In this document: positions 15,535 through 47,103 of the stretch, in pieces | Numbering within the stretch: the first letter of the stretch is position 1 | How the letters are laid out: each line of letters begins with the position of its first letter | Assembly (NCBI GenBank): GCA_028599125.1 | Contig: JAQRMX010000056.1 | Coordinates: 1-51,282, forward strand | DNA length: 51,282 nucleotides | Reading direction: 5' to 3' | DNA from: Alphaproteobacteria bacterium | GTDB lineage: Bacteria; Pseudomonadota; Alphaproteobacteria; Rhizobiales; NORP267 | Program-made: the position numbers and the translations under genes | The notes under the pieces: model-generated | Database searches by the model: none | The model's input: only the letters and a program-made list of their open reading frames with translations | What the model was told of the DNA's origin: nothing

Positions 15535-15671
15535 TTCAGGAACAGCCAGTTGCAACGTGTACCAAAGCATCTGATTTCATTGCATAAAACGGTGTTTATA
15601 GCGTTTGTCCTGTACTCGTGAATTGCAGTTGATTGCAGGCAAGACCGTGCAATTCCCGTACAAAAAGGACA

Positions 15672-16124
15672 ATGAAAATGGTTACTCAGCGATTGAAGAT
15701 AACGCAAGCAGCGTGCGAAAAGACACCACCCAACAGCAAGCCGTGGGACACCGAGATTAAGGGCTTCGGCTTGTTCACGGGCAAATCGACGAAGACATTT
15801 TACTATCAACGCGAAGTGCGCGGTAAGACGGTTCGCATCAAACTCGGGAACTTCCCACAGGTCTCCGCAGGCATCGCGCGTGGTGACGTGTTGCAGCTCG
15901 CCGCCGACCATGCGTCGGGCCTGTCCGCAAAGTGCCTCAATGCGTCGAAGATACCGACACCCGCGCAGGCTCTCGAAACGTATATCATGCGGCCCAAGCT
16001 GAGGTCCGAGAGAAACAAACGGCAAATCCACAATCAAATGCACCGACATTTGAAGAACTGTCGTGCTGCATTCATGCGCGCAGATGTACAAAGGCCTCGA
16101 ATGGATCGGTGGCTGTTTGCATAA
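15672..16124 (+). pseudogene. Truncated/frameshifted tyrosine integrase (Arm-type DNA-binding N-terminus only)
   Basis: MVTQRLKITQAACEKTPPNSKPWDTEIKGFGLFTGKSTKTFYYQREVRGKTVRIKLGNFPQVSAGIARGD resembles the DUF4102/Arm domain; continuation (VREKQTANPQSNAPTFEEL) is in another frame; no catalytic domain follows. Confidence 0.75.
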
Positions 16125-16244
16125 ATACACGAACACCTCGAATGGGACCCCTGTTTGAGATGGCGGGACGCCGAACCGGGTCTTCACAGAATTCTCCAGA
16201 AACATACTGACCACCCACTTGGGTGCCATGCCCACGCCCGTCAA

Positions 16245-17195
16245 TCATCCACTCAAATCCGCAGCCTCGTCAAAATATGCCTCATCAATCTGCTTGATAT
16301 GCAGAATATCTTTATCGCGGCATCCAATGTTGTGCTTGATCATCAGCTTTGCCAATTGAGAACCGTCGATTAGAACAATCCGAGCTCCCAAGTTCTTAAC
16401 CGTTTGCGTCGCAGACATTGTGAAGTGAGAGGTTGTGACAAAAATTCCTTTGGTTGTCTTCATGATGCTTAGAGCACCGTAGAATTCCCGGATATCGCCC
16501 GGCCCAACGCTGTTGCCTGCCGCATAGCGTTTTGCCTGCAAGTAAATTTGATCGACGCCGAGAGGGTCCTGATCAATAACACCATCCACGCCGTTATCGC
16601 CTGACTGCCCTAACGCCCTGCCAGCGTCTTCAGACGGTCCGCCATAGCCCATAGCTCTCAAGAGATCGACGATAAGGTTCTCGAAAAAACGTGGGGATGC
16701 CGAGCGAACACAGTCGAGCAGGTTTGCCGCTAGCGCAGCCTCAAGTTTCTTGTGTGCGGCCTGAAGGTTTTCGTCGGGCGTGTTAGAAACACTTTCGGAT
16801 TCCGCTGAATTGAACGTACTTTCCTGCTCGTCACTTTCTTTGCTTCGGGCTTTAAATTCCTGAAACTCGTCAAATTTCGCAAGAAATTTGTTATTGAGAA
16901 CGACATCTACATTTTCTTGAACAGAGCGCCCTCTGTCCGTCAATTCATACCAGCCGCGTTTGACGTTTTTCACCAACCCAGCTTGCTTCAGGTAGGACCG
17001 GGCCCAATGCACTCTATTAGCAAATTTCGTCTGACCGCCGCTTGGAAGTAGCTGCTGTCTCTCCTCGTCGCTCAATTCGAGACGATTGGAAATTTCTTCG
17101 ACCACATCCGAAATCTTTCGTGGTTCATTTTTTGCGCAATCCAAAACCGGGCGCATCAAAGACTGGTATTCAGGAATCATCGGCACTCTTTTCAA
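16245..17195 (-). CDS. mrr: Mrr-type restriction endonuclease (type IV)
   Basis: Mrr N-terminal winged helix (QTKFANRVHWARSYLKQAGLVKNVKRGWYELTDRG) plus PD-(D/E)XK-like core (FFENLIVDLLRAMGYGG...GDNGVDGVIDQDPLGVDQIYLQAKRY...FVTTSHFT). Confidence 0.92.
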   Translation of the reverse strand: MKRVPMIPEYQSLMRPVLDCAKNEPRKISDVVEEISNRLELSDEERQQLLPSGGQTKFANRVHWARSYLKQAGLVKNVKRGWYELTDRGRSVQENVDVVLNNKFLAKFDEFQEFKARSKESDEQESTFNSAESESVSNTPDENLQAAHKKLEAALAANLLDCVRSASPRFFENLIVDLLRAMGYGGPSEDAGRALGQSGDNGVDGVIDQDPLGVDQIYLQAKRYAAGNSVGPGDIREFYGALSIMKTTKGIFVTTSHFTMSATQTVKNLGARIVLIDGSQLAKLMIKHNIGCRDKDILHIKQIDEAYFDEAADLSG

Positions 17196-19216: not shown

Positions 19217-19291
19217 GCGGGCGTAGCTCAGGGGTAGAGCACAACCTTGCCAAGGTTGGGGTCGTGGGTTCGAATCCCATCGCCCGCTCCA
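19217..19291 (+). tRNA. tRNA-Gly (GCC) with encoded CCA
   Basis: gcgggcg-tagctca...caacc-ttGCCaa-ggttg...ttcgaat...cgcccgc-t-cca; cloverleaf folds by eye. Confidence 0.95.
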
Positions 19292-20140: not shown

Positions 20141-20752
20141 TTAAATTCTTTCGACGAGAGAATTCGGCCAGGCCAGGCGTACTGGAGCAGCCCATTTCAG
20201 CTTCACATCAAACATATTGTCAATAAATGGATTGACGCTGATAAGGTGAAATGTTTCCGGTTGACTTCCGGGTTTTATATGTTTTACCCAAGCATTCCCA
20301 TTTTCATCTTCACAGACACAGATTGATCCCAAAGCTTCTGTTGGAACACCAAATGTCTCTCGGGAATAAAACAGCACATCTCCATTCTTATAGACAGGAA
20401 ACATGCTGTCTCCTTCCACTTCTACGGCTACAATACTGCTTCTGTGAGGTAAATCGGCAGGACATGCAACGTGGTAAAGCCCATTTCCCCTTTCGAAATC
20501 ATCAATGAGGGGCACTTTCGCACCTGCACCGACCTTCCCGGCGACTGAAATCGGTTTTGCGTCGTCAAACAGATCTCCGACCCGAACATCAAGAACTTTT
20601 GCGATGGAAAGCAAGGTATCCGTTGAGGGTGATTTTTTTATATTCATGCTTTCAATCGCAGCAATGTAAGGGCGTGAGATACCAGCTGCATCAGCAAGTT
20701 GATATTGCTTCATACCCTTTTGTTTCCTGATTTTACGAATACGGCTATTCAT
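20141..20752 (-). CDS. XRE-HTH / S24 (LexA-like) phage repressor
   Basis: RKQKGMKQYQLADAAGISRPYIAAIESMN HTH; C-term VEGDSMFPVYKNGDVLFYSRE and GNAWVKHIKP of S24 peptidases. Confidence 0.92.
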   Translation of the reverse strand: MNSRIRKIRKQKGMKQYQLADAAGISRPYIAAIESMNIKKSPSTDTLLSIAKVLDVRVGDLFDDAKPISVAGKVGAGAKVPLIDDFERGNGLYHVACPADLPHRSSIVAVEVEGDSMFPVYKNGDVLFYSRETFGVPTEALGSICVCEDENGNAWVKHIKPGSQPETFHLISVNPFIDNMFDVKLKWAAPVRLAWPNSLVERI

Positions 20753-21998: not shown

Positions 21999-24503
21999 AT
22001 GAGCTCTCCTTTTTGCACTATCGCGGCCCTCTTGTGGGAAAATGGTTTTACACCACTGCCCGTTATGCCCGGCTCAAAAATACCGGGGCGGTATCAGGGG
22101 GGAGTGTGGCGACCTATGAGGGGATGGACAAGATTTTGTGACGAGGTGCTGCCTTTATACCAGATAAGTCAGTGGGAAAAATGGCCGGAAGCCGGCATAA
22201 GCATTGTGCATGGAACGGTGATCGGACTTGATGTGGATACAGATAGAAAAGATGTTGCAAAGGCAATCTTTAATGCAATTGAGCCCTCTCCAGTTAAACG
22301 ACGGGGGGAAAAGGGGTATGTCGCCTATTACCGAATCGGCGAGGGGTTGGAAAACAACAAAGCCCGTCTGTGCTGGAAAAATGGAAACGAGATACTTTGT
22401 GAACTCTTGCTCAGGGGCACACATTCTGTCATTCCTCCGACGCTTCACCCGAAAACGGGGAAACCCTATTTCTGGTTAACACCCGAAACTTTAGGAGATA
22501 TCGGATGTGACGAGTTGCCTGAATTGAAAGGTGAATCGCTTCAGCGTCTCGATGAGGAGCTTGGAAAACTGGGAGTGAAGCGGAACCAGTCTCCGGAGCA
22601 AATGCTCGTCAGGATCAGGCCTGACAAGTCTTCCTCTCCCTGGCGGAAACTCAACAATCGTGCTCTGGAACCGGCAGCTCTTGATCAATGGTGGCCGGCG
22701 TTAAAGATGCCCAAAAGTGCCTCACGGAGATCCGGAGCATGGGAAGCTGTTCCCTTCTGGCGCCCCTCGACGTCCGGAAGACGGACTGAAGAACGCAATC
22801 CAAATCTCAAAGCGGCTCCTGAGGGTATCGTTGATTTTGGCGTAGGCAGAACGCATACGCCTCTTGATGTCGTTATGTGTGCTAGGGGGTGTTCTCCTGT
22901 CATGGCAAAAAATTGGCTTGAGCAGTATGTACGGATGGAAGTGACGAAATTGGAAGCTGAGTTTATGCCGAACCGCAGGGGAGAGGATAACTTTGTTTCG
23001 GAGTGTCCGGACAGGAGTGATGTACCTGATCCCGTTCAGGCTGTAAGTTCCTCTTTCCCTTCTGGAACGCCTCATTCTTGTGAACAGTCTCGTCCCTCTG
23101 AAAAATCTTATCACTATGAAAAGAGCGGGGATAGTGATGAAAAAGACGCTGAACATACATCATGGTGCATGGCTCCTGTTTTCAGGAGAGCAAAGCCCCG
23201 GCCAAAGAACAGGGAGATACGGGGTCTTTCCAGCGCGGATTTTGAAACTCTGCTTCCACGGGATGCAGGTCCCTTTCCAATCACTAATTACCGCCATGAC
23301 TGCCCGGGACTCTTGGGGCAGATTGCAAGCTATCTTGAGAAGGCGGGATCCACGGAAACAGAAGCTGGCGGCCTTGCCGTAGCGCTTCCGATGCTCGGTG
23401 CTGTCATGGGACGGCTTTATGCAACATCCACAGGTCTCCGCACAAATATTTATGCTGTTGCCCTGGGAGCGTCAGGGACAGGAAAAACCTCTCTGGTCAA
23501 TCCCGCCAAGGAAATCATGCGTCTTTCAGAATTGGGTTCTCTCATTGGGCAGGATAGAATTGCCTCAGGGGCAGGTCTGATTAAAATGCTCGTTACCGAA
23601 CCGAGACGCATTTGTTTTCTTGATGAATTCGGACATATGCTTCAGCAGATCGGAATGCCGGGAGCTGGTGTTCATGCCCGGCAGATCATTTCTGAATTTA
23701 CGCAATTATTCTCTGCGGCCCGGTCTCTCTATACAGGTACGGCTTATGCCACGCGCGCGCCGGTGGAGATAGATTGCCCGCATTTATGCCTCTTTGGCAT
23801 GGCAACACCGGAACAGTTTTGGCGGGCGTTCAGTTCATTAGCACTGGAAGATGGGTCTATTGCCCGTTACCTTGTTTTTCCCATTGGGTATACAGGGTCA
23901 AGGGATCCGGATTGCCGTTCCCGGCCCGGAATTGTAAGCGCATTAGAACATCTGGCGGCTATCATTGGCTCCCGCTCAAAGGGCCATCAGGGCAATACTG
24001 GATTGTGCATTGCTCCTCTTTCTGAAAAAGTTGAAACAGCGAGGCAATCTCTCATCAAAACTATGGATGCATGTGCAGAGTATGCGGAGAGAAACAGCAT
24101 CAAGGGGGGCATGGCAATCCTGAGGAGAGTGGCTGAGAATGCAATAAAGATTGCCCTTATTTCAGCTGTGGGGCGCAATCCGGCCAAGCCGTTTATTGAA
24201 AAAATAGATTTTGACATCGGACATGCCATCGCACGTTGGTCTGCCACTCATATGTTGATCAATATTGCAAGCCATATCGCAGATAATCAGTTTGAACGCG
24301 ATGTTAATGATGTGGAACGGTTTGTCTCTCAGGCTGAGAAAAAGGGACGAATCTGGCGCGAAATACAGCGCAAATTCCGCCGTATTAGGAAGCGTGATCT
24401 TCAGGATATCATTGAGGGGCTTGAAAAAGAGGGGAGTGTGAGAGTCCAGACAGATCCCAATCCACAAGGGGGGCATCCTGTGAAACGGATATTTTGCACC
24501 TGA
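21999..24503 (+). CDS. Phage replication protein: AEP primase-polymerase (Prim-Pol) fused to DUF3987-like ATPase
   Basis: N-term GFTPLPVMPGSKIPG...GISIVHGTVIGLDVDTD (AEP hDhD motif); later YAVALGASGTGKTSLVNPAKEI Walker A and ICFLDEFGHM Walker B. Confidence 0.88.
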   Translation: MSSPFCTIAALLWENGFTPLPVMPGSKIPGRYQGGVWRPMRGWTRFCDEVLPLYQISQWEKWPEAGISIVHGTVIGLDVDTDRKDVAKAIFNAIEPSPVKRRGEKGYVAYYRIGEGLENNKARLCWKNGNEILCELLLRGTHSVIPPTLHPKTGKPYFWLTPETLGDIGCDELPELKGESLQRLDEELGKLGVKRNQSPEQMLVRIRPDKSSSPWRKLNNRALEPAALDQWWPALKMPKSASRRSGAWEAVPFWRPSTSGRRTEERNPNLKAAPEGIVDFGVGRTHTPLDVVMCARGCSPVMAKNWLEQYVRMEVTKLEAEFMPNRRGEDNFVSECPDRSDVPDPVQAVSSSFPSGTPHSCEQSRPSEKSYHYEKSGDSDEKDAEHTSWCMAPVFRRAKPRPKNREIRGLSSADFETLLPRDAGPFPITNYRHDCPGLLGQIASYLEKAGSTETEAGGLAVALPMLGAVMGRLYATSTGLRTNIYAVALGASGTGKTSLVNPAKEIMRLSELGSLIGQDRIASGAGLIKMLVTEPRRICFLDEFGHMLQQIGMPGAGVHARQIISEFTQLFSAARSLYTGTAYATRAPVEIDCPHLCLFGMATPEQFWRAFSSLALEDGSIARYLVFPIGYTGSRDPDCRSRPGIVSALEHLAAIIGSRSKGHQGNTGLCIAPLSEKVETARQSLIKTMDACAEYAERNSIKGGMAILRRVAENAIKIALISAVGRNPAKPFIEKIDFDIGHAIARWSATHMLINIASHIADNQFERDVNDVERFVSQAEKKGRIWREIQRKFRRIRKRDLQDIIEGLEKEGSVRVQTDPNPQGGHPVKRIFCT

Positions 24504-25278: not shown

Positions 25279-25983
25279 ATGAGTGCTCGACGTGAATCTC
25301 TGGGGCAGGGTGCACAAAAAATTAATAAAACAGCCAGAACCCAGATGAAAAACCCCAATATTTTCTGGTATGCACTCCTTGTTAGGTCAGGTAAGGAATT
25401 TCTTGCTCAACGAATTTCGCAACAGGGAGGTGCTTATGTTTATCTTCCGCTTTGCTGGAAATGGCGCCGGCTCAATCGCTATAAACGTGAGAAGAGCAAA
25501 TTGGCCTACCCTGCTCTTCCGGGTTGTCTCTTTATCGGCTTTGAATCAGGGAAAGAGGAATGGCTCTGTTTGGTCAGGTCTGTTACAAGCCTGCGGGGAT
25601 TGCTGGGGTGTTTTGGTATGCCTCTTGCCCTAAGAGGGGAGCGTCTTTCCTTTTTTATTGAGAGTAATTTTATGCGCTTTGATGTGCCACAGGAAGAGCG
25701 ATATATGCGCACACATCATGAATTTCAGGCCGGTGATCAGGTGCAGATTACCAGTGGTCCTCTTGTGGGCTATATTGTTGATGTTCAGAAGATCAGTGGG
25801 AAATATGCTTTTATATTCAATGAGATTTGTCATGAGACGAAAATATCACTTGACAAATTAGAGAAGATAGACTATAATATAAAACATAATGATGTAACAA
25901 GGATCTGCGCGTGTCCTACAGACCCTGATGGGTTTGAGGGGGTTAAGAGCCGCTCCTGTGAGGGACGGGTATCTTCAAAGTGA
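25279..25983 (+). CDS. Phage-encoded NusG-like transcription (anti)termination factor
   Basis: NGN-like FWYALLVRSGKEFLAQRISQQGGAYVYLPLCWKW...LPGCLFIGF; KOW-like FQAGDQVQITSGPLVGYIVDVQKISGKYAFIFNEI. Confidence 0.82.
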   Translation: MSARRESLGQGAQKINKTARTQMKNPNIFWYALLVRSGKEFLAQRISQQGGAYVYLPLCWKWRRLNRYKREKSKLAYPALPGCLFIGFESGKEEWLCLVRSVTSLRGLLGCFGMPLALRGERLSFFIESNFMRFDVPQEERYMRTHHEFQAGDQVQITSGPLVGYIVDVQKISGKYAFIFNEICHETKISLDKLEKIDYNIKHNDVTRICACPTDPDGFEGVKSRSCEGRVSSK

Positions 25984-26156
25984 AGCTTCAGAAGTGGAGC
26001 TCCTTTCGTGAGCGCAATTGTTACACCCCAGGTGCCCCTGAAGTATGGCGCTATTGGTTGAGAACGGTTGTAAGACTCGGTCTTGCAGGCTGGTGCGGAG
26101 CTTACGAAAATGGCCGTAGGGCTTTTCGGAGACTCGGGATTTATTCTCTACTTTGA
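25980..26156 (+). CDS. Small 58-aa phage protein, GTG start overlapping nusG-like stop (GTGA)
   Basis: (M)KLQKWSSFRERNCYTPGAPEVWRYWLRTVVRLGLAGWCGAYENGRRAFRRLGIYSLL-stop; not in supplied ORF track. Confidence 0.5.
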   Translation: MKLQKWSSFRERNCYTPGAPEVWRYWLRTVVRLGLAGWCGAYENGRRAFRRLGIYSLL

Positions 26157-26379
26157 TAATTAAAAAGCAATAAACCGCTGGAGGGAGCAGGGCTTGTCTT
26201 GTTTCTCTTTTGGACAGGAAAATTGCAGGAATTTCTCGAGGCTTTATCTTAAGGCATGTGTTTCCGTAATATAAGGTACGGGGGGCTCATGAGAAAAACC
26301 TCTTGAAAAATTCCGGATAACCTTCAGAGACGCTCTTTCCCTGAAGGCATATATCAATAAATCCACTCAGAGCCTGAAC

Positions 26380-26874
26380 GTGCCACGCCCTAGAACAAAA
26401 AGGGGAACTCTGATGGTCAAATCCCTGGTTATGGCAAAACAAATACGTAAGTCTTTCTTAGAAGCTCTTGCCGGAACAGGAAATGTTTCAGAAGCTGTTC
26501 GTGTTGCAAAAATTTCGCGTAGTACTGTCTATAAATACCGTAAAATTGAGGTTGATTTTGCTCGGGAATGGGATGAAGCAGAGCAAGAAGCTGCAGACAG
26601 GCTGGAGCGTGAAGCCTGGAGGCGGGCTGTGGAGGGCTTTGACAAGCCTGTCATTTATAGAGGAAAAGTCACAGATATATACAAGGATTATTCGGATAGG
26701 ATGCTCGAATTGCTTCTGAAAGCGAAACGTCCCGGAAAATTCAAAAAGCCTATTGACAGTGAAGAAACAGGAAAAGAACGGGGGCCGCAGACCGGACTTG
26801 AAAAAACAGCCGCCTCTGAGCGCCTGATTGCCATATTGGATAAGATGTCTTTAAGGCCTGATGACGGATCGTAA
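26380..26874 (+). CDS. Terminase small subunit-like protein
   Basis: HTH near N-term (GTGNVSEAVRVAKISRSTVYKYRK...FAREWDEAEQEAADRLEREAWRRAVEG); overlaps terL; start may be at 26413. Confidence 0.8.
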   Translation: MPRPRTKRGTLMVKSLVMAKQIRKSFLEALAGTGNVSEAVRVAKISRSTVYKYRKIEVDFAREWDEAEQEAADRLEREAWRRAVEGFDKPVIYRGKVTDIYKDYSDRMLELLLKAKRPGKFKKPIDSEETGKERGPQTGLEKTAASERLIAILDKMSLRPDDGS

Positions 26875-28204
26875 GACGCAAAGCCCCACGGAAAAGCTTG
26901 CGGCTTTATCCCGGGAAACGCGAAATGAGTTTCTGCAGAGCCTCTCTGAAGATGAATGTGAGGATTTGCTCTATAAGTGGCGGGGCTTTTTTGCTCGGCC
27001 TAATCAACTTCCTCCAGTAGGAGAGTGGGATATTTGGTTAATCCTTGCGGGGCGGGGCTTCGGAAAGACGCGGGCAGGAGCCGAATGGATTCGTGAGAAA
27101 GTCTACGGGGGGGCCAGACGGATTGCTTTGGTTGCCGAGACACAAAAAGATCTTGAAGAGGTCATGATTGAAGGAAATAGTGGTGTTCTATCGGTATTTC
27201 CTCCTGCCCGGCGCCCGCGCTATCAGAAAAAGCCAGTGAGGCTGATGTTTGACACAGGTGCCGTTGCCCTCGGATATAATGCGACCCAACCGGATCAACT
27301 TCGTGGTCCTCAATTTGATGTCGCATGGTGCGATGAGCTTGCAAAATGGCGTTATGCAAGGGAAACATGGGACCAGTTACAATTTGGAATGAGGCTGGGA
27401 GAGACACCTCAGCAGCTTGTGACGACAACGCCACGGCCGATCGAAGTGCTTAAGTCAATCCTGAACAGCCGGGAAGGACGTGTTCACGTGACAAGGGGCA
27501 GGACTGTTGATAACCGCTCTAATCTGGCTCCCTCTTTTCTAAGAAAGATCAAAGCCCGTTATGCGGGCACTGTTCTAGGACAACAGGAGCTTGAGGGGGA
27601 GGTTCTTGATACTCTTCCCGGTGGACTGTGGAAGCGTGAGCAAATTGATGCCACGAGGATAGACAGGGCCCCGGAAGATCTGGAACGTATCCTTATCTCC
27701 ATTGACCCGGCGATGACACATCATCGTGAAAGTAACGAACACGGCCTTATCGTCGTTGGAACGTGCCATCGGCATGGATATGTTCTTGAAGATGCATCTT
27801 TGAAGGGATCGCCCTTGTCCTGGGCCCGTCGCGCTGTTGAACTTTATGACATCTATGCTGCGGACGGGATTGTCGTTGAGGTGAACCAGGGGGGAGACAT
27901 GGTTGCTCAGACTATTCGCAGCGTTCGGGACGGTATGAATATTATTCAGGTTCGTGCCACGCGGGGCAAACATGTGCGTGCTGAACCGGTGGCGGCTCTT
28001 TATGAGCAAAAGCGTGTCCATCATGTCGGTAATTTTCCGGAACTTGAGAATCAGATGAGCTTGATGACCAGCGCTGGTTTTGAAGGAGACGGCTCTCCTG
28101 ACCGACTTGATGCGCTTGTTTGGGCTATAATCGAATTATTTCCTGCGATGCTTCTGGAGACGTCTGTCAAAATTCCTCATTTCAGTGTGAGGCATGTTGT
28201 GTGA
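26861..28204 (+). CDS. Terminase large subunit
   Basis: WDIWLILAGRGFGKTRAGAEWIREKVYGGARRIALVAETQKDLEEVMIEG; nuclease part ILISIDPAMTHHRESNEHGLIVVG. Confidence 0.95.
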   Translation: MTDRKTQSPTEKLAALSRETRNEFLQSLSEDECEDLLYKWRGFFARPNQLPPVGEWDIWLILAGRGFGKTRAGAEWIREKVYGGARRIALVAETQKDLEEVMIEGNSGVLSVFPPARRPRYQKKPVRLMFDTGAVALGYNATQPDQLRGPQFDVAWCDELAKWRYARETWDQLQFGMRLGETPQQLVTTTPRPIEVLKSILNSREGRVHVTRGRTVDNRSNLAPSFLRKIKARYAGTVLGQQELEGEVLDTLPGGLWKREQIDATRIDRAPEDLERILISIDPAMTHHRESNEHGLIVVGTCHRHGYVLEDASLKGSPLSWARRAVELYDIYAADGIVVEVNQGGDMVAQTIRSVRDGMNIIQVRATRGKHVRAEPVAALYEQKRVHHVGNFPELENQMSLMTSAGFEGDGSPDRLDALVWAIIELFPAMLLETSVKIPHFSVRHVV

Positions 28205-28366: not shown

Positions 28367-30538
28367 ATGGCAGAGGGGAAAATGAACAAACAAATAAAAA
28401 ACGACGCGATAGAAGATCATGACAAACTTGCTTGTTATGTTGCTGATCTGATCGAAAAATGTGAAATTTATTCAGATGAACAAAAACATGATCGTACGCG
28501 CGCGCTCGAATATTACGATGGAAAGATGAATGATTTGCGAGCTGAAGACGGACGCTCTCAGTCTGTCTCCAGAGATGTGCGCTCTGTTATCAGGAAGCTT
28601 ATGCCTTCAGTTTTGCGGACATTGCTGTCAAATGAAAAGATCGTTGAATATCATCCATTAAGTCCAGAAGATGAACTGAGTTCACAGCAGGCAACCGATT
28701 ATATAAATCACGTTATTCTTCATGAAAGTGGAGCCAGGAGAGCCATTTATGATTCTATTTTTGATGCCCTGACTGTGAAGACAGGCATCATAAAATGGGT
28801 TGCTTATAAACGGAGAAAATCAAGGATTCATGAATACACCAACCAGCCATCTCTAGCCTTGCTGGGACTGGAAGGTGAGGAGGGCGTGGAAATCTTTGAT
28901 CGTAAGGATTGGTTGGAAACGGATCCTTTTATTCTTGCTATTAACCCCGAAGCAGAAAGGCATGACTTCAAACTGCGCCGCACGGAAGAGCGTATTGACA
29001 TTCGCCTGGAAGCGATCCCGCGAGGGTCTTTTCTCATTTATCCGAACGCGGTCAATATCGGTGAAAGCCCCATTATTGGGGAACGACAAATTGTTACAAG
29101 ATCTGAATTAGTCAGCCGAGGATATAATAAAGACCAAGTTGCAGCTCTCAATGTGTGCAGAGGAGAAAAAGACGATCTTGAAGATAGGCAGGCCCGGCAG
29201 GGTGATGACTGGACTGACATAAGGGCTGAAATGTCTGCCGCAATGGAAGAGGTCCTCTTGTATGAGGTCTATGTGAAGCTTGATCAGGATCATGACGGTA
29301 TTGCTGAACTTTACAAAATCTGCCTTGCGAGAAGCAGAGGAGACGGAGGGGGACCACAGATCATCCTTGAGATGGAAGCGGTAGACGAAGCGCCTTATAC
29401 TCAGATCGTTGCTGAACAGGAAGCGCACCAGTTTGAAGGTCATTCCGTAGCGGAAGATGTGATGGACATCCAGCGCATCAAAACGGCTCTCCTACGGGAA
29501 ACACTAGATAATATTTATTGGCAGAACAAAAAGCAGCCTGCTATTGATCCTTCCCGGCTGACGGAGAGCGGGATGGAGGCTATCTATAACCCTGCATTCG
29601 GAAAGCCTATTCTCCTCAAAAGTGGAGCCAATGTCCATGAAGCCATTCAGTGGGGTAACGTCCCTTTCGTAGCGGACAAATCCTTTGCCATGATGTCTTA
29701 CCTCGATAATGAGGCGCAAAATCGGACCGGGATTACCGAAAGCGCCGGGGGCGTTAATCCTGAACTCCTGAAGGATATGACAAAATTTGCAGCCATTTTG
29801 ATTTCTGAGAGTGGGATTGCAAGGGCGGCCATGATCATTGACACTCTCTCCGGGAACGGTGCTGCAGACGGGAGCGGGATTGCAAGGGCGTTTAAGGGCT
29901 TACTCAAACTTGTGATTGCCCATACTGATCAACCCCGCACTGTCTGTCAGGGAGGAAAATGGGTTGAATATGATCCGCGTCAATGGAACGTAGAGATGAA
30001 TTGCATTGTCAATGTCGGGTTGGGGGCAGGCTCAAAGGAGCGTGATCTGGCTGTCTTGCAAATGATCCTTGGGCTCCAGAAGGAATTGATTGCAATCATG
30101 GGAGCCAATAACCCCTTTGTGACGCCGGTGCAGATTTATAATGTCCTTGAAAAGATCACAGAGACAGCTGGATTTTCCAGCGCAAATCCCTATTTCACAA
30201 AGCCGGATGAGGAGGCGATCCGGAGACATTTCCAAACAGAATTGAAGCCATCCGAAAATGACGAAAAATTCCATATGCAAATGGAGCTGGAAAAACTGAA
30301 AGCGACGCTGAAAATTCAGATTGAGAAAGAACAAATGGAGGCTGACCTTTGCGTTCAGCAGGCTGAATTAGAGAAAAACAAGTCTATCCAATTGTTAAAA
30401 ACCGAGCAAGAGCGCGAAATCGCCATGATGAAAAGTCAGTTTGATTGGTTGAAATATCAAGAAAAAATGAACTTGGAGCGACAAAAAGCCGGATTGGAGA
30501 GACCAGGGAAACAGGTTGCGGATCAGGAAAAAAGCTAG
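28367..30538 (+). CDS. Portal protein (P22-like)
   Basis: 723 aa downstream of terL; RTRALEYYDGKMNDLRAEDGRSQSVSRDVRSVIRKLMPSVLRTLLSNEKIVEYHP; coiled-coil C-term. Confidence 0.85.
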   Translation: MAEGKMNKQIKNDAIEDHDKLACYVADLIEKCEIYSDEQKHDRTRALEYYDGKMNDLRAEDGRSQSVSRDVRSVIRKLMPSVLRTLLSNEKIVEYHPLSPEDELSSQQATDYINHVILHESGARRAIYDSIFDALTVKTGIIKWVAYKRRKSRIHEYTNQPSLALLGLEGEEGVEIFDRKDWLETDPFILAINPEAERHDFKLRRTEERIDIRLEAIPRGSFLIYPNAVNIGESPIIGERQIVTRSELVSRGYNKDQVAALNVCRGEKDDLEDRQARQGDDWTDIRAEMSAAMEEVLLYEVYVKLDQDHDGIAELYKICLARSRGDGGGPQIILEMEAVDEAPYTQIVAEQEAHQFEGHSVAEDVMDIQRIKTALLRETLDNIYWQNKKQPAIDPSRLTESGMEAIYNPAFGKPILLKSGANVHEAIQWGNVPFVADKSFAMMSYLDNEAQNRTGITESAGGVNPELLKDMTKFAAILISESGIARAAMIIDTLSGNGAADGSGIARAFKGLLKLVIAHTDQPRTVCQGGKWVEYDPRQWNVEMNCIVNVGLGAGSKERDLAVLQMILGLQKELIAIMGANNPFVTPVQIYNVLEKITETAGFSSANPYFTKPDEEAIRRHFQTELKPSENDEKFHMQMELEKLKATLKIQIEKEQMEADLCVQQAELEKNKSIQLLKTEQEREIAMMKSQFDWLKYQEKMNLERQKAGLERPGKQVADQEKS

Positions 30539-40821: not shown

Positions 40822-42504
40822 ATGCGGATTGACCTTGGAAAACTGAAATTCAACTGGAAAGGGCAATATAAGGATGATGTGACTTACGAGAAAGATGATG
40901 TTGTCTTTTATGACGGCTCCTCCTATATTTTTGTTTCCCTCAATCCTCGTTCCAAAATTCCACCATCTCGCCTTATTCCTCCATTTCAAGTGAATCTCTC
41001 CGGGGACGTCTGGGATCTTATGACTTTTGGCATTCCATTGGTAAAATCTTCCGGGGTGCTTGTCTTTTCTGATGAATCCGGTCTTTCTGTCCTCCCTCCA
41101 GGAAAGGAAGGGATGGTTTTAACCTCCCATGGGCTTTCATCTCCGGAATGGGAGATGGCGAACAAAAAGTTTGTTCTGCGTTTGCCTAATACGGACTATC
41201 TCTACGGGGCCTTCTGTAGCGGGAGCGTGATATTGTCTGATGGGACGCCCCGTTCCTGGGGTGATGGATCTTACGGCCAACTCGGTCAGGGGGCCTCGGT
41301 AGGCAAAAATAGATTTAAACCTGTTATGCCCGTATTCCCCAATAAAGATATCTTTGTTGAAGAATGGCATCGATCGGGATGCGAAAATTTTTGTCGGATG
41401 TCAGATAGATCAATCTACAGCTGGGGTCGTAACAGCAGTGGATGTCTGGGACATGGACATACGTCCCCCGTATTTCTTCCTACGAAAGTGGAAGCGCTTG
41501 AAGGAAAGAGCATTTCTAATATTTACTTTGGGCAAGGAAATAGTTCTCTCCGACAGCATGTCCTGTTTTTGTCAGAAGATGGCTTAGTTTATGCAACGGG
41601 TAACAATGAATCCGGTCAATTGGGTGTGGGATATGATGTTTTAATCAAAACACCTTTATGTCTTTCGAAGAAGAATTGGTTTTGTATTTTTTCTATCGGA
41701 ACTCAAGGAAAGAGCCGGAGTTTCGGTATTGACTTTGAGGGGGCGTTATGGGGCTGGGGAGACAATAGTGACTATGCTCTGGGTACAGGAAGGGGAAGGA
41801 AGAAGTATTATCTTCCTACAAAAATTGATCTTCCGTTAAGCTGTTTTTCTGTTTCCAGTGGAATAGATTATGATAGAGGGATCTTGGTAGGACATACGCT
41901 GGCTTTGCTTTCAGATGGAAGCGTTTTCGGCTGGGGACGGAATCAATCCGGGGAATTGGGGTTTAAAAGTTCAATCTATGAAAGGATCCCGAAACTTATT
42001 TCATCGTTGGGGGACGATAATTTCCTTGTTTTTGCTTGGGGCAGTCTGTCTGCTTCATCCTTGGTGCTCAAAAAAGATCGGACTCTCCGCGTTTTCGGCT
42101 CAAACCAATCTGGACATCTTGGCATAGGGTCTATGACTTCGACGTTCTCCCCGATGAAGCCAAATATCAATGAAACGTCCCCCATTAAGCAGATTTTGCC
42201 GATTGGAACTTCTTTGCATCGATCGCTTTTTCTGCTTTTTGAAAATGGGAAGCTTTTTGCGTCAGGTTACAATAAAAGCGGTACTCTTGGTCTAGGGGAT
42301 TTTGAAAACAGATCCTTTTTTGAAGAGGTTCCCCTGATGAATGAAAAGATTATTTCTATGTGTGCTGTAGGACAGGGAGCTTCTGTAAGCATCGGAATTC
42401 TGACCGAAAAAGGCAATTATTATCAAAGTGGTTCGGGCACGAACGGACAATTGCCGTGGGAAGAAATAGAAAAGTCGAGTGTTTTTTGCCCGATCTCTTT
42501 CTGA
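40822..42504 (+). CDS. Tail-fibre/receptor-binding protein with RCC1-type beta-propeller
   Basis: N-term NWKGQYKDDVTYEKDDVVFYDGSSYIFV; repeated SWGDGSYGQLGQG, SWGRNSSGCLGHG, ATGNNESGQLGVG, GWGDNSDYALGTG, GWGRNQSGELGF, VFGSNQSGHLGIG, ASGYNKSGTLGLG, SGSGTNGQLPWE. Confidence 0.88.
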   Translation: MRIDLGKLKFNWKGQYKDDVTYEKDDVVFYDGSSYIFVSLNPRSKIPPSRLIPPFQVNLSGDVWDLMTFGIPLVKSSGVLVFSDESGLSVLPPGKEGMVLTSHGLSSPEWEMANKKFVLRLPNTDYLYGAFCSGSVILSDGTPRSWGDGSYGQLGQGASVGKNRFKPVMPVFPNKDIFVEEWHRSGCENFCRMSDRSIYSWGRNSSGCLGHGHTSPVFLPTKVEALEGKSISNIYFGQGNSSLRQHVLFLSEDGLVYATGNNESGQLGVGYDVLIKTPLCLSKKNWFCIFSIGTQGKSRSFGIDFEGALWGWGDNSDYALGTGRGRKKYYLPTKIDLPLSCFSVSSGIDYDRGILVGHTLALLSDGSVFGWGRNQSGELGFKSSIYERIPKLISSLGDDNFLVFAWGSLSASSLVLKKDRTLRVFGSNQSGHLGIGSMTSTFSPMKPNINETSPIKQILPIGTSLHRSLFLLFENGKLFASGYNKSGTLGLGDFENRSFFEEVPLMNEKIISMCAVGQGASVSIGILTEKGNYYQSGSGTNGQLPWEEIEKSSVFCPISF

Positions 42505-43721: not shown

Positions 43722-45011
43722 TTGAAAATAAGCGAAAAAGGTATTTTAGAAATTATTACCCATGAGGGGATCGTCCTATCCCCCTACAAGGACTGTGTCG
43801 GGATCTGGACTGTAGGAATCGGCCACACGAAAAGCCTAAGGAAAGGGCCTCAGTTTTTTGTCAGAAAGGCCTTGTCTTCCCGAGAGGTTATGGCACTTTT
43901 TCTGAAAGATATTGCTCCTTGCTTGGAGCGCGTGCGCACGATTTTCAATCGGGATATCACACAAGAACAATTTGATGCAGCGGTATCTTTTGATTTTAAC
44001 ACCGGTGCCCTTCTTCGTGCTTCATGGGTGAGGCATTTCAACAATGGTCATGATGATAAAGCTAAAAAAGCATTTATGGCATGGTGTAAACCGTCCCAAA
44101 TCATTGAACGGAGGCGAAAAGAAAAAAAGCTCTTTTTTGAGCAGAAATATTCAAGTTCTGGATATGTGGTTCTTTATCCTGCTTCATGCACGGGTGATGT
44201 GCTGTGGGGGCAGGGACAGAGGGTGTCTTATTCCGATTTTTTCGTTAAGCCCGGAGGGAGGGACGCTAATTCAGGACTTTCTTCCGGGCGCTTTACGTCC
44301 CGAAAAGAAACAGACAGAAAAGAGACGACCAGAAAAACGGCGCCAATGGGAATAAAAGAGGAGGTGTTTGATGAGCAGCTTTCTCCTGACCCTGCTATGG
44401 TTCCCTCATTTCGACCACAGCAAGATCAGGAGATTACACGCGCTGTGCTTGAAAAATTTTCTTATCTCACTCCGGTAGATTATCAGAACGATTTGATTAA
44501 GGTCCTGATGGTGCGAGGATATTATATGAATATTATGGGAAATAAGGGACAGAATGAACGCGCTGTTTATGATGATGCGCTCTTTGTCGTTTCCCCGGAA
44601 GGGACGCAATCTTTCAATGGAAATGCAGATCCTTCCATATTTCGCAGGGGGATTGCAACGATTAAGGATCCACAGGCTATCCAGTATAGTCCCGGATTGC
44701 ACGGATATAACCGGAGAGCGGGCCCTTATCCGGCTTTTTGTCAGGAGGCCCCCTGTACGGTTATGCGTGATGGCAGAGGAGAAGATACTGGCTTGTTTTT
44801 TGTCAATCTCCATCGTGGGGGAGTTGAAGATACTTCATCGAAGGGTTGTTTGACGGTTCCCCCGAACCAGTGGAAGGAATTTTACGCGCTTTTATGTGGC
44901 CTGCTTGAAAAATATGGGCAGTCCACTTTTTTCCTGACATTACTGTCCTATCCTGAAGATGAGCCTCCTGTGATCCTTTCCAGTGGCGGGGCCGCGTACA
45001 GGGAGAGTTAA
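43722..45011 (+). CDS. Endolysin: GH24 lysozyme-like N-terminus plus C-terminal Cys-containing domain
   Basis: ITHEGIVLSPYKDCVGIWTVGIGHT (E..C..T arrangement of GH24); C-term LHGYNRRAGPYPAF...FVNLHRGGVEDTSSKGCLTVPPNQW. Confidence 0.8.
   Translation: MKISEKGILEIITHEGIVLSPYKDCVGIWTVGIGHTKSLRKGPQFFVRKALSSREVMALFLKDIAPCLERVRTIFNRDITQEQFDAAVSFDFNTGALLRASWVRHFNNGHDDKAKKAFMAWCKPSQIIERRRKEKKLFFEQKYSSSGYVVLYPASCTGDVLWGQGQRVSYSDFFVKPGGRDANSGLSSGRFTSRKETDRKETTRKTAPMGIKEEVFDEQLSPDPAMVPSFRPQQDQEITRAVLEKFSYLTPVDYQNDLIKVLMVRGYYMNIMGNKGQNERAVYDDALFVVSPEGTQSFNGNADPSIFRRGIATIKDPQAIQYSPGLHGYNRRAGPYPAFCQEAPCTVMRDGRGEDTGLFFVNLHRGGVEDTSSKGCLTVPPNQWKEFYALLCGLLEKYGQSTFFLTLLSYPEDEPPVILSSGGAAYRES

Positions 45012-47027: not shown

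Positions 47028-47103
<76 letters not shown>

Follow-up and report, generated by a model that had tools for sequence, protein, structure and literature searches.

Reviews list RfaH, LoaP, TaA, UpxY and ActX, and rfaH-like genes on prophages are mentioned there as well (PMC7593976 among them). LoaP acts via an RNA hairpin located upstream of an intrinsic terminator (PMC12691694). For most alphaproteobacterial temperate phages, we found no account in the literature of how the late genes are switched on. The papers on LM21-type prophages discuss no mechanism, and in one of them the early region closes with a 'transcription antiterminator' (PMC5537653, PMC12429752). In these papers and in the annotations the NusG-type gene is either just named or not mentioned, and neither promoter, leader RNA nor terminators are described.

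Here we analyzed a prophage-bearing contig of an alphaproteobacterium; the entire stretch of 51,282 nt is called the window. The best reading of its NusG-type gene, to which we assign a probability of roughly 0.7 from sequence and structure prediction, is that it forms part of a NusG-based, Q-like module for late antitermination. The gene occupies a slot between a replication gene and a one-way late operon. The relevant genes are:

20141-20752, minus strand, CI-type repressor (Pfam HTH_3, Peptidase_S24)
21999-24503, plus strand, primase/helicase-type replication gene at the end of the early region (Pfam Prim-Pol, DUF3987; PHROG DNA primase)
25279-25983, plus strand, NusG-family ORF of 234 aa, phage paralog (Pfam NusG, PHROG 6386, AlphaFold2, Foldseek), with an NGN domain at residues ~28-134, a KOW domain at ~145-197 and a predicted disordered C-terminal extension at ~199-234
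26380-26874, plus strand, terminase small subunit, the first late gene (PHROG 4044, 2.6e-34)
26861-28204, plus strand, terminase large subunit (Pfam Terminase_6N, 6C)
28367-30538, plus strand, SU10-type portal protein (Pfam SU10_portal, 2.7e-161)
from 31989, plus strand, SU10-type capsid

Long plus-strand ORFs continue in one direction up to 45728, making a late block of ~19.3 kb, and the end of the paralog is separated from the terminase small subunit gene by 396 nt. The earlier note on this DNA had placed the ORF directly upstream of a terminase/structural operon of ~19 kb, and these coordinates bear it out.

Some further features of the window and its host were recorded. The late region encodes an RCC1-repeat protein (40822-42504; Pfam RCC1 1.1e-45, WD40_RLD 4.8e-55), which is unusual for a phage tail region, and a protein with a phage lysozyme domain (43722-45011; residues 14-133) followed by a long C-terminal part without a Pfam name. 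At 15633-17195 a short ORF of the integrase arm-binding type (163 aa, probably fragmentary) is adjoined on the opposite strand by an Mrr-type restriction endonuclease. The prophage is flanked by tRNA-Gly (19217-19291, plus strand) and tRNA-Ala (47028-47103, minus strand), which are possible integration sites. The host genome, 1.43 Mb at 99.8% completeness, is reduced when set against the 2.8-3.8 Mb of the listed genomes of the same family, yet it carries a prophage.

The ORF at 25279-25983 matched Pfam NusG (PF02357) with an E-value of 7.6e-7 and 30 bits (cut-off 22.2) over residues 30-121, and PHROG 6386 'transcription antiterminator' with 1.2e-13. By sequence the KOW segment is weak, with Pfam KOW at 0.019 and KOW4_SPT5 at 0.006, both below cut-off, over residues 145-185. 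The AlphaFold2 model, built on an alignment of 25 sequences, has a mean pLDDT of 79.6, rising to around 90 across NGN and KOW, and the KOW is confidently predicted as a small beta barrel. A Foldseek search against solved structures returned NusG and RfaH as the closest matches, with full-length NusG structures ranked at the top; the NGN domain of RfaH (8pen_P) aligned with a TMt of 0.79 and an rmsd of 2.1 A over 97 columns. The NGN-like and KOW-like segments described in the earlier note are thus present as a predicted NGN domain and KOW barrel, and the comparison of an AlphaFold model with NusG and RfaH that it had suggested gave the expected fold. From sequence and model, the ORF is a divergent NusG-family protein containing both domains. 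The KOW was modeled in the beta form from only 25 aligned sequences, and an RfaH-style fold switch is compatible with this result.

The host has a separate, normal housekeeping nusG on another contig. Because of this separate gene and because a terminase operon adjoins as target, the ORF is a specialised NusG paralog. Close relatives of the protein were found neither in annotated phages nor in viral contigs, the nearest being ~30% identical.

The slot itself is conserved. In seven annotated phages a NusG paralog is located just upstream of the terminase genes on the same strand: Sinorhizobium phages phi2LM21 and phi3LM21, Rhizobium PPF1, Mesorhizobium vB_MseS-P1, Agrobacterium Rivra, Nostoc Nsp-JY10 and Microcystis yong2. 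The interval sometimes contains one or a few small genes, e.g., an HNH gene, and in PPF1, Rivra and yong2 the order spans the ends of the record. A prophage on a Leisingera plasmid (L134) has the paralog followed by terminase, in the same order as in the window. PHROG 6386 also matches housekeeping NusG and is unsuited to surveys. A 43-nt leader pattern consisting of DNA only retrieved 41 viral contigs from IMG/VR. All 38 of these with upstream DNA have a NusG paralog on the same strand, whose end precedes that of the pattern by 107-171 nt, and TerL follows downstream in 33 of the 41; in the other eight the stored DNA stops within 1.8 kb. Relatives L022-L034 were treated separately as RfaH-like; several of these genes lie in polysaccharide loci. 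Separately, a motif GGTC(G/A)AAAGT(C/T) with G-runs is common to five loci. In L071, L074, L036 and L021 it immediately precedes the terminase small subunit gene, and in L020 it immediately follows the NusG paralog; it is possibly a cos/packaging site.

We refer to the phi3LM21-type phages as the sister group, a label by which no sister relation is meant. In a midpoint-rooted tree with several long branches, the window protein belongs to a clade of eight phage proteins (support 97/89) beside RfaH-like chromosomal proteins, and the sister group, which carries the leader RNA described below, is on the host-NusG side. In view of this two-sided placement, two NusG lineages may have come to occupy the slot, and since the window protein and the sister group stand apart, a mechanism deduced for the latter may not carry over to the window.

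The 3' end of the paralog gene contains a predicted late promoter:

25850-25878, plus strand, predicted late promoter, with TTGACA at 25850-25855, a 17-nt spacer and TATAAT at 25873-25878

It matches the consensus at 12 of 12 positions and is the sole perfect TTGACA-17-TATAAT in 51 kb, with 0.025 expected on both strands. The -35 box coincides with the Leu-Asp codons of SLDKLEKI, and the homologous codons of the sister group lie in PLAxLEKL. Of 40 non-redundant related genes, 37 have TTG at these codons in the form xTT-G, and nearly all carry a CTTG -35 box there; genes with Ile or Val in place of Leu retain the TTG. Leu at this site is encoded by CTT in 33 of 34 cases, whereas CTT makes up 16% of the other Leu codons of the same genes (p ~1e-23, a value that is not strict because the gene rows are related; codon and motif counts carry no correction for phylogeny). 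In the relatives the corresponding -10 boxes are not strong. Transcription probably starts at this embedded promoter. No 11-mer is common to the late promoter and the repressor region of the window, i.e., an operator-like repeat was not found there. By its sequence, the window has a gene at the early/late junction with a predicted late promoter at its end, a feature of the lambda Q type.

The same arrangement bears on the possibility that the paralog has a lambda N-like role, protecting or extending early transcription, and that it precedes the late operon just by being the last early gene. It does close the early region, and most relatives have it immediately behind, or overlapping with, the replication gene, as this explanation would predict. 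Against such a role, which we regard as very improbable, stand the conserved promoter in the 3' end of the gene and, just downstream of it, the RNA structure and terminator of the sister group.

A conserved element 3' of the paralog was first seen in six phages. In the sister group, the leader that follows the promoter contains a strongly covarying RNA structure of ~160 nt. Across 33 sequences, 98% of the cells are paired and 9 of 18 pairs have changes on both sides. Doubly changed cells number 61, compared with 18.5 for shuffles. Sliding the partners makes the signal collapse, a control that favours the structure to some degree because the structure was predicted on the same alignment. All five pairs of a long-range helix joining columns 24-28 with 124-128 covary. 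No match to this RNA was found in Rfam 15. A second, short pattern (P3) retrieved two further loci with the same order, its other four matches being attributable to chance, and a whole-genome search added one more (L128), which scored 107.9 bits with a full model built without it. Three weak matches of RNA model R1 in the order (22-28 bits) were dismissed as chance, a profile search finding no NusG or terminase nearby; one of them, L131, resembles ordinary coding DNA on full reading.

The sister-group RNA is usually followed by a predicted intrinsic terminator. The threshold for a strong terminator was passed by 35 of 40 leaders, a count that includes the window leader and a few long imperfect hairpins, versus 33 of 120 shuffled leaders.

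For the window's own leader, the following elements were annotated:

25885-26379, plus strand, predicted untranslated late leader from about +1, inferred from the promoter, to the terminase small subunit gene, overlapping the C-terminal extension of the ORF
26079-26126, plus strand, weak candidate intrinsic terminator, an imperfect hairpin followed by TTTT and the best hairpin-plus-U-tract in the leader
26093-26106, plus strand, weak candidate for a P3 hairpin relic or analogue, GTGCGGAGCTTACG compared with GTGCGAAAGCTATG in the sister group

We do not claim the sister-group RNA for the window, since model R1 gave 0.6 bits at the P3-like candidate and model R2 nothing. The leader had no match in Rfam, and its global fold is no more structured than that of shuffles. 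The candidate terminator was equalled by 8 of 150 shuffles (~5%). The pattern that picks out the P3-like motif at 26093 matches nowhere else in the window; it was itself chosen after the motif had been seen. Within the window clade, the Leisingera prophage L134 carries in its 500-nt leader a motif resembling P3 (13.1 bits, E 9e-4 for that leader) along with a GC-rich hairpin that runs into T-rich sequence. No motif common to the leaders of the clade exceeded shuffles.

A variant of the Q-like reading is that the paralog loads as RfaH does, at an ops-type DNA element on the non-template strand of the window leader and not at RNA. The window clade adjoins RfaH-like chromosomal proteins, and the leader contains GGCCGTAG at 26112-26119, one mismatch from the ops core GGCGGTAG. 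About 0.2 such one-mismatch 8-mers are expected per 500 nt, which keeps this ops-like sequence within chance, and the lack of a common short motif in the leaders of the clade also counts against it. We consider this variant unlikely; as a sub-variant of the main reading, its share overlaps with the probability given above.

A window leader with neither a clear loading element nor a strong terminator would also suit a general anti-Rho or processivity factor that loads without regard to the leader, the late genes being activated by the embedded promoter alone, e.g., through derepression. Specialised NusG paralogs are considered to favour long operons via Rho exclusion (PMC7593976). However, the covarying RNA and the terminator of the sister group accompany the paralog at every informative locus, and a perfect promoter that shares no repeat with the repressor region would fire in the lysogen unless transcription were stopped. 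Such a general factor is therefore quite unlikely in our estimate.

The Q-like module would operate as follows. The paralog, as the last gene of the early region, would be a phage-specialised NusG in the role of lambda Q, and the late promoter at 25850-25878 would start a long leader ahead of the terminase genes. RNA polymerase lacking the paralog would halt within this leader. After induction the paralog would build up and load on the polymerase while the leader is being synthesized, where it would displace or outcompete the action of host NusG/NusA, and the polymerase with the paralog would read through the 19-kb late operon. The NusG-family fold, the conserved slot and the promoter at a homologous site are steps supported by sequence, and so, for the sister group, are the RNA and the terminators. 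Loading within the leader, read-through, timing and promoter activity are what we infer from this arrangement, together with the recruitment signal and terminator of the window. The protein, its position and the promoter sequence are firm for the window.

The proposal in the earlier note of a possible Q-type antiterminator is partly supported. Its fold and position are confirmed, and the conserved slot, the embedded promoter and the sister-group leader RNA and terminator, comparative evidence that the note did not have, favour a Q-like role; in the window's own leader no RNA or DNA recruitment element was found, and the terminator candidate is weak. A broader scheme is that two phage lineages have recruited NusG paralogs, placed near RfaH-like proteins in one and near housekeeping NusG in the other, as a widespread equivalent of Q with the promoter in their own gene, and that in one lineage the ~160-nt RNA recruits the paralog past the next terminator. 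We put this forward tentatively, at somewhat less than even odds.

The results suggest a widespread Q-like switch built from NusG. If true, it would join the logic of lambda Q with the NusG/RfaH/LoaP family. The candidate is specific and widely distributed, with protein, promoter, leader RNA and terminator within ~1 kb, and is hence testable by reporter or in vitro assays, and the structured RNA of the sister group adds to what Rfam 15 holds. NusG-type 'antiterminators' were already known from the annotations of such phages. What appears to be new is the promoter-RNA-terminator arrangement. We found no description of this module in the open-licence literature, a scope within which its absence is not proven.

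The genes annotated as phage 'transcription antitermination protein NusG' (phi2LM21, phi3LM21, PPF1, Rivra; PHROG 6386; phiLM21-like prophages) are of the same family and occupy the same slot. GafZ of the Caulobacter gene transfer agent is likewise an alphaproteobacterial antiterminator of a phage-like late cluster, but it is not a NusG paralog and is reported to act with host NusA, NusG and NusE (PMC11150451). RfaH, also an NGN-KOW paralog, is among the best structural matches and RfaH-like proteins adjoin the window clade in the tree, whereas the window paralog is phage-borne beside its target and the ops-like sequence of its leader is within chance. LoaP (Bacillus, dfn leader) is a NusG paralog with a structured RNA before an intrinsic terminator, as in the sister-group leader (PMC12691694); it serves an antibiotic operon, whereas here the target is a phage late operon and the putatively bound RNA is larger and different (~160 nt, in the sister group, not detectable in the window). 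The pR'-qut-tR' system of lambda Q differs in that Q has an unrelated fold, while the window factor is a NusG paralog with a predicted promoter inside its gene and a candidate terminator. Common to both are a factor encoded by the last early gene, a late promoter at that gene, a long leader before terminase and a single long late operon.
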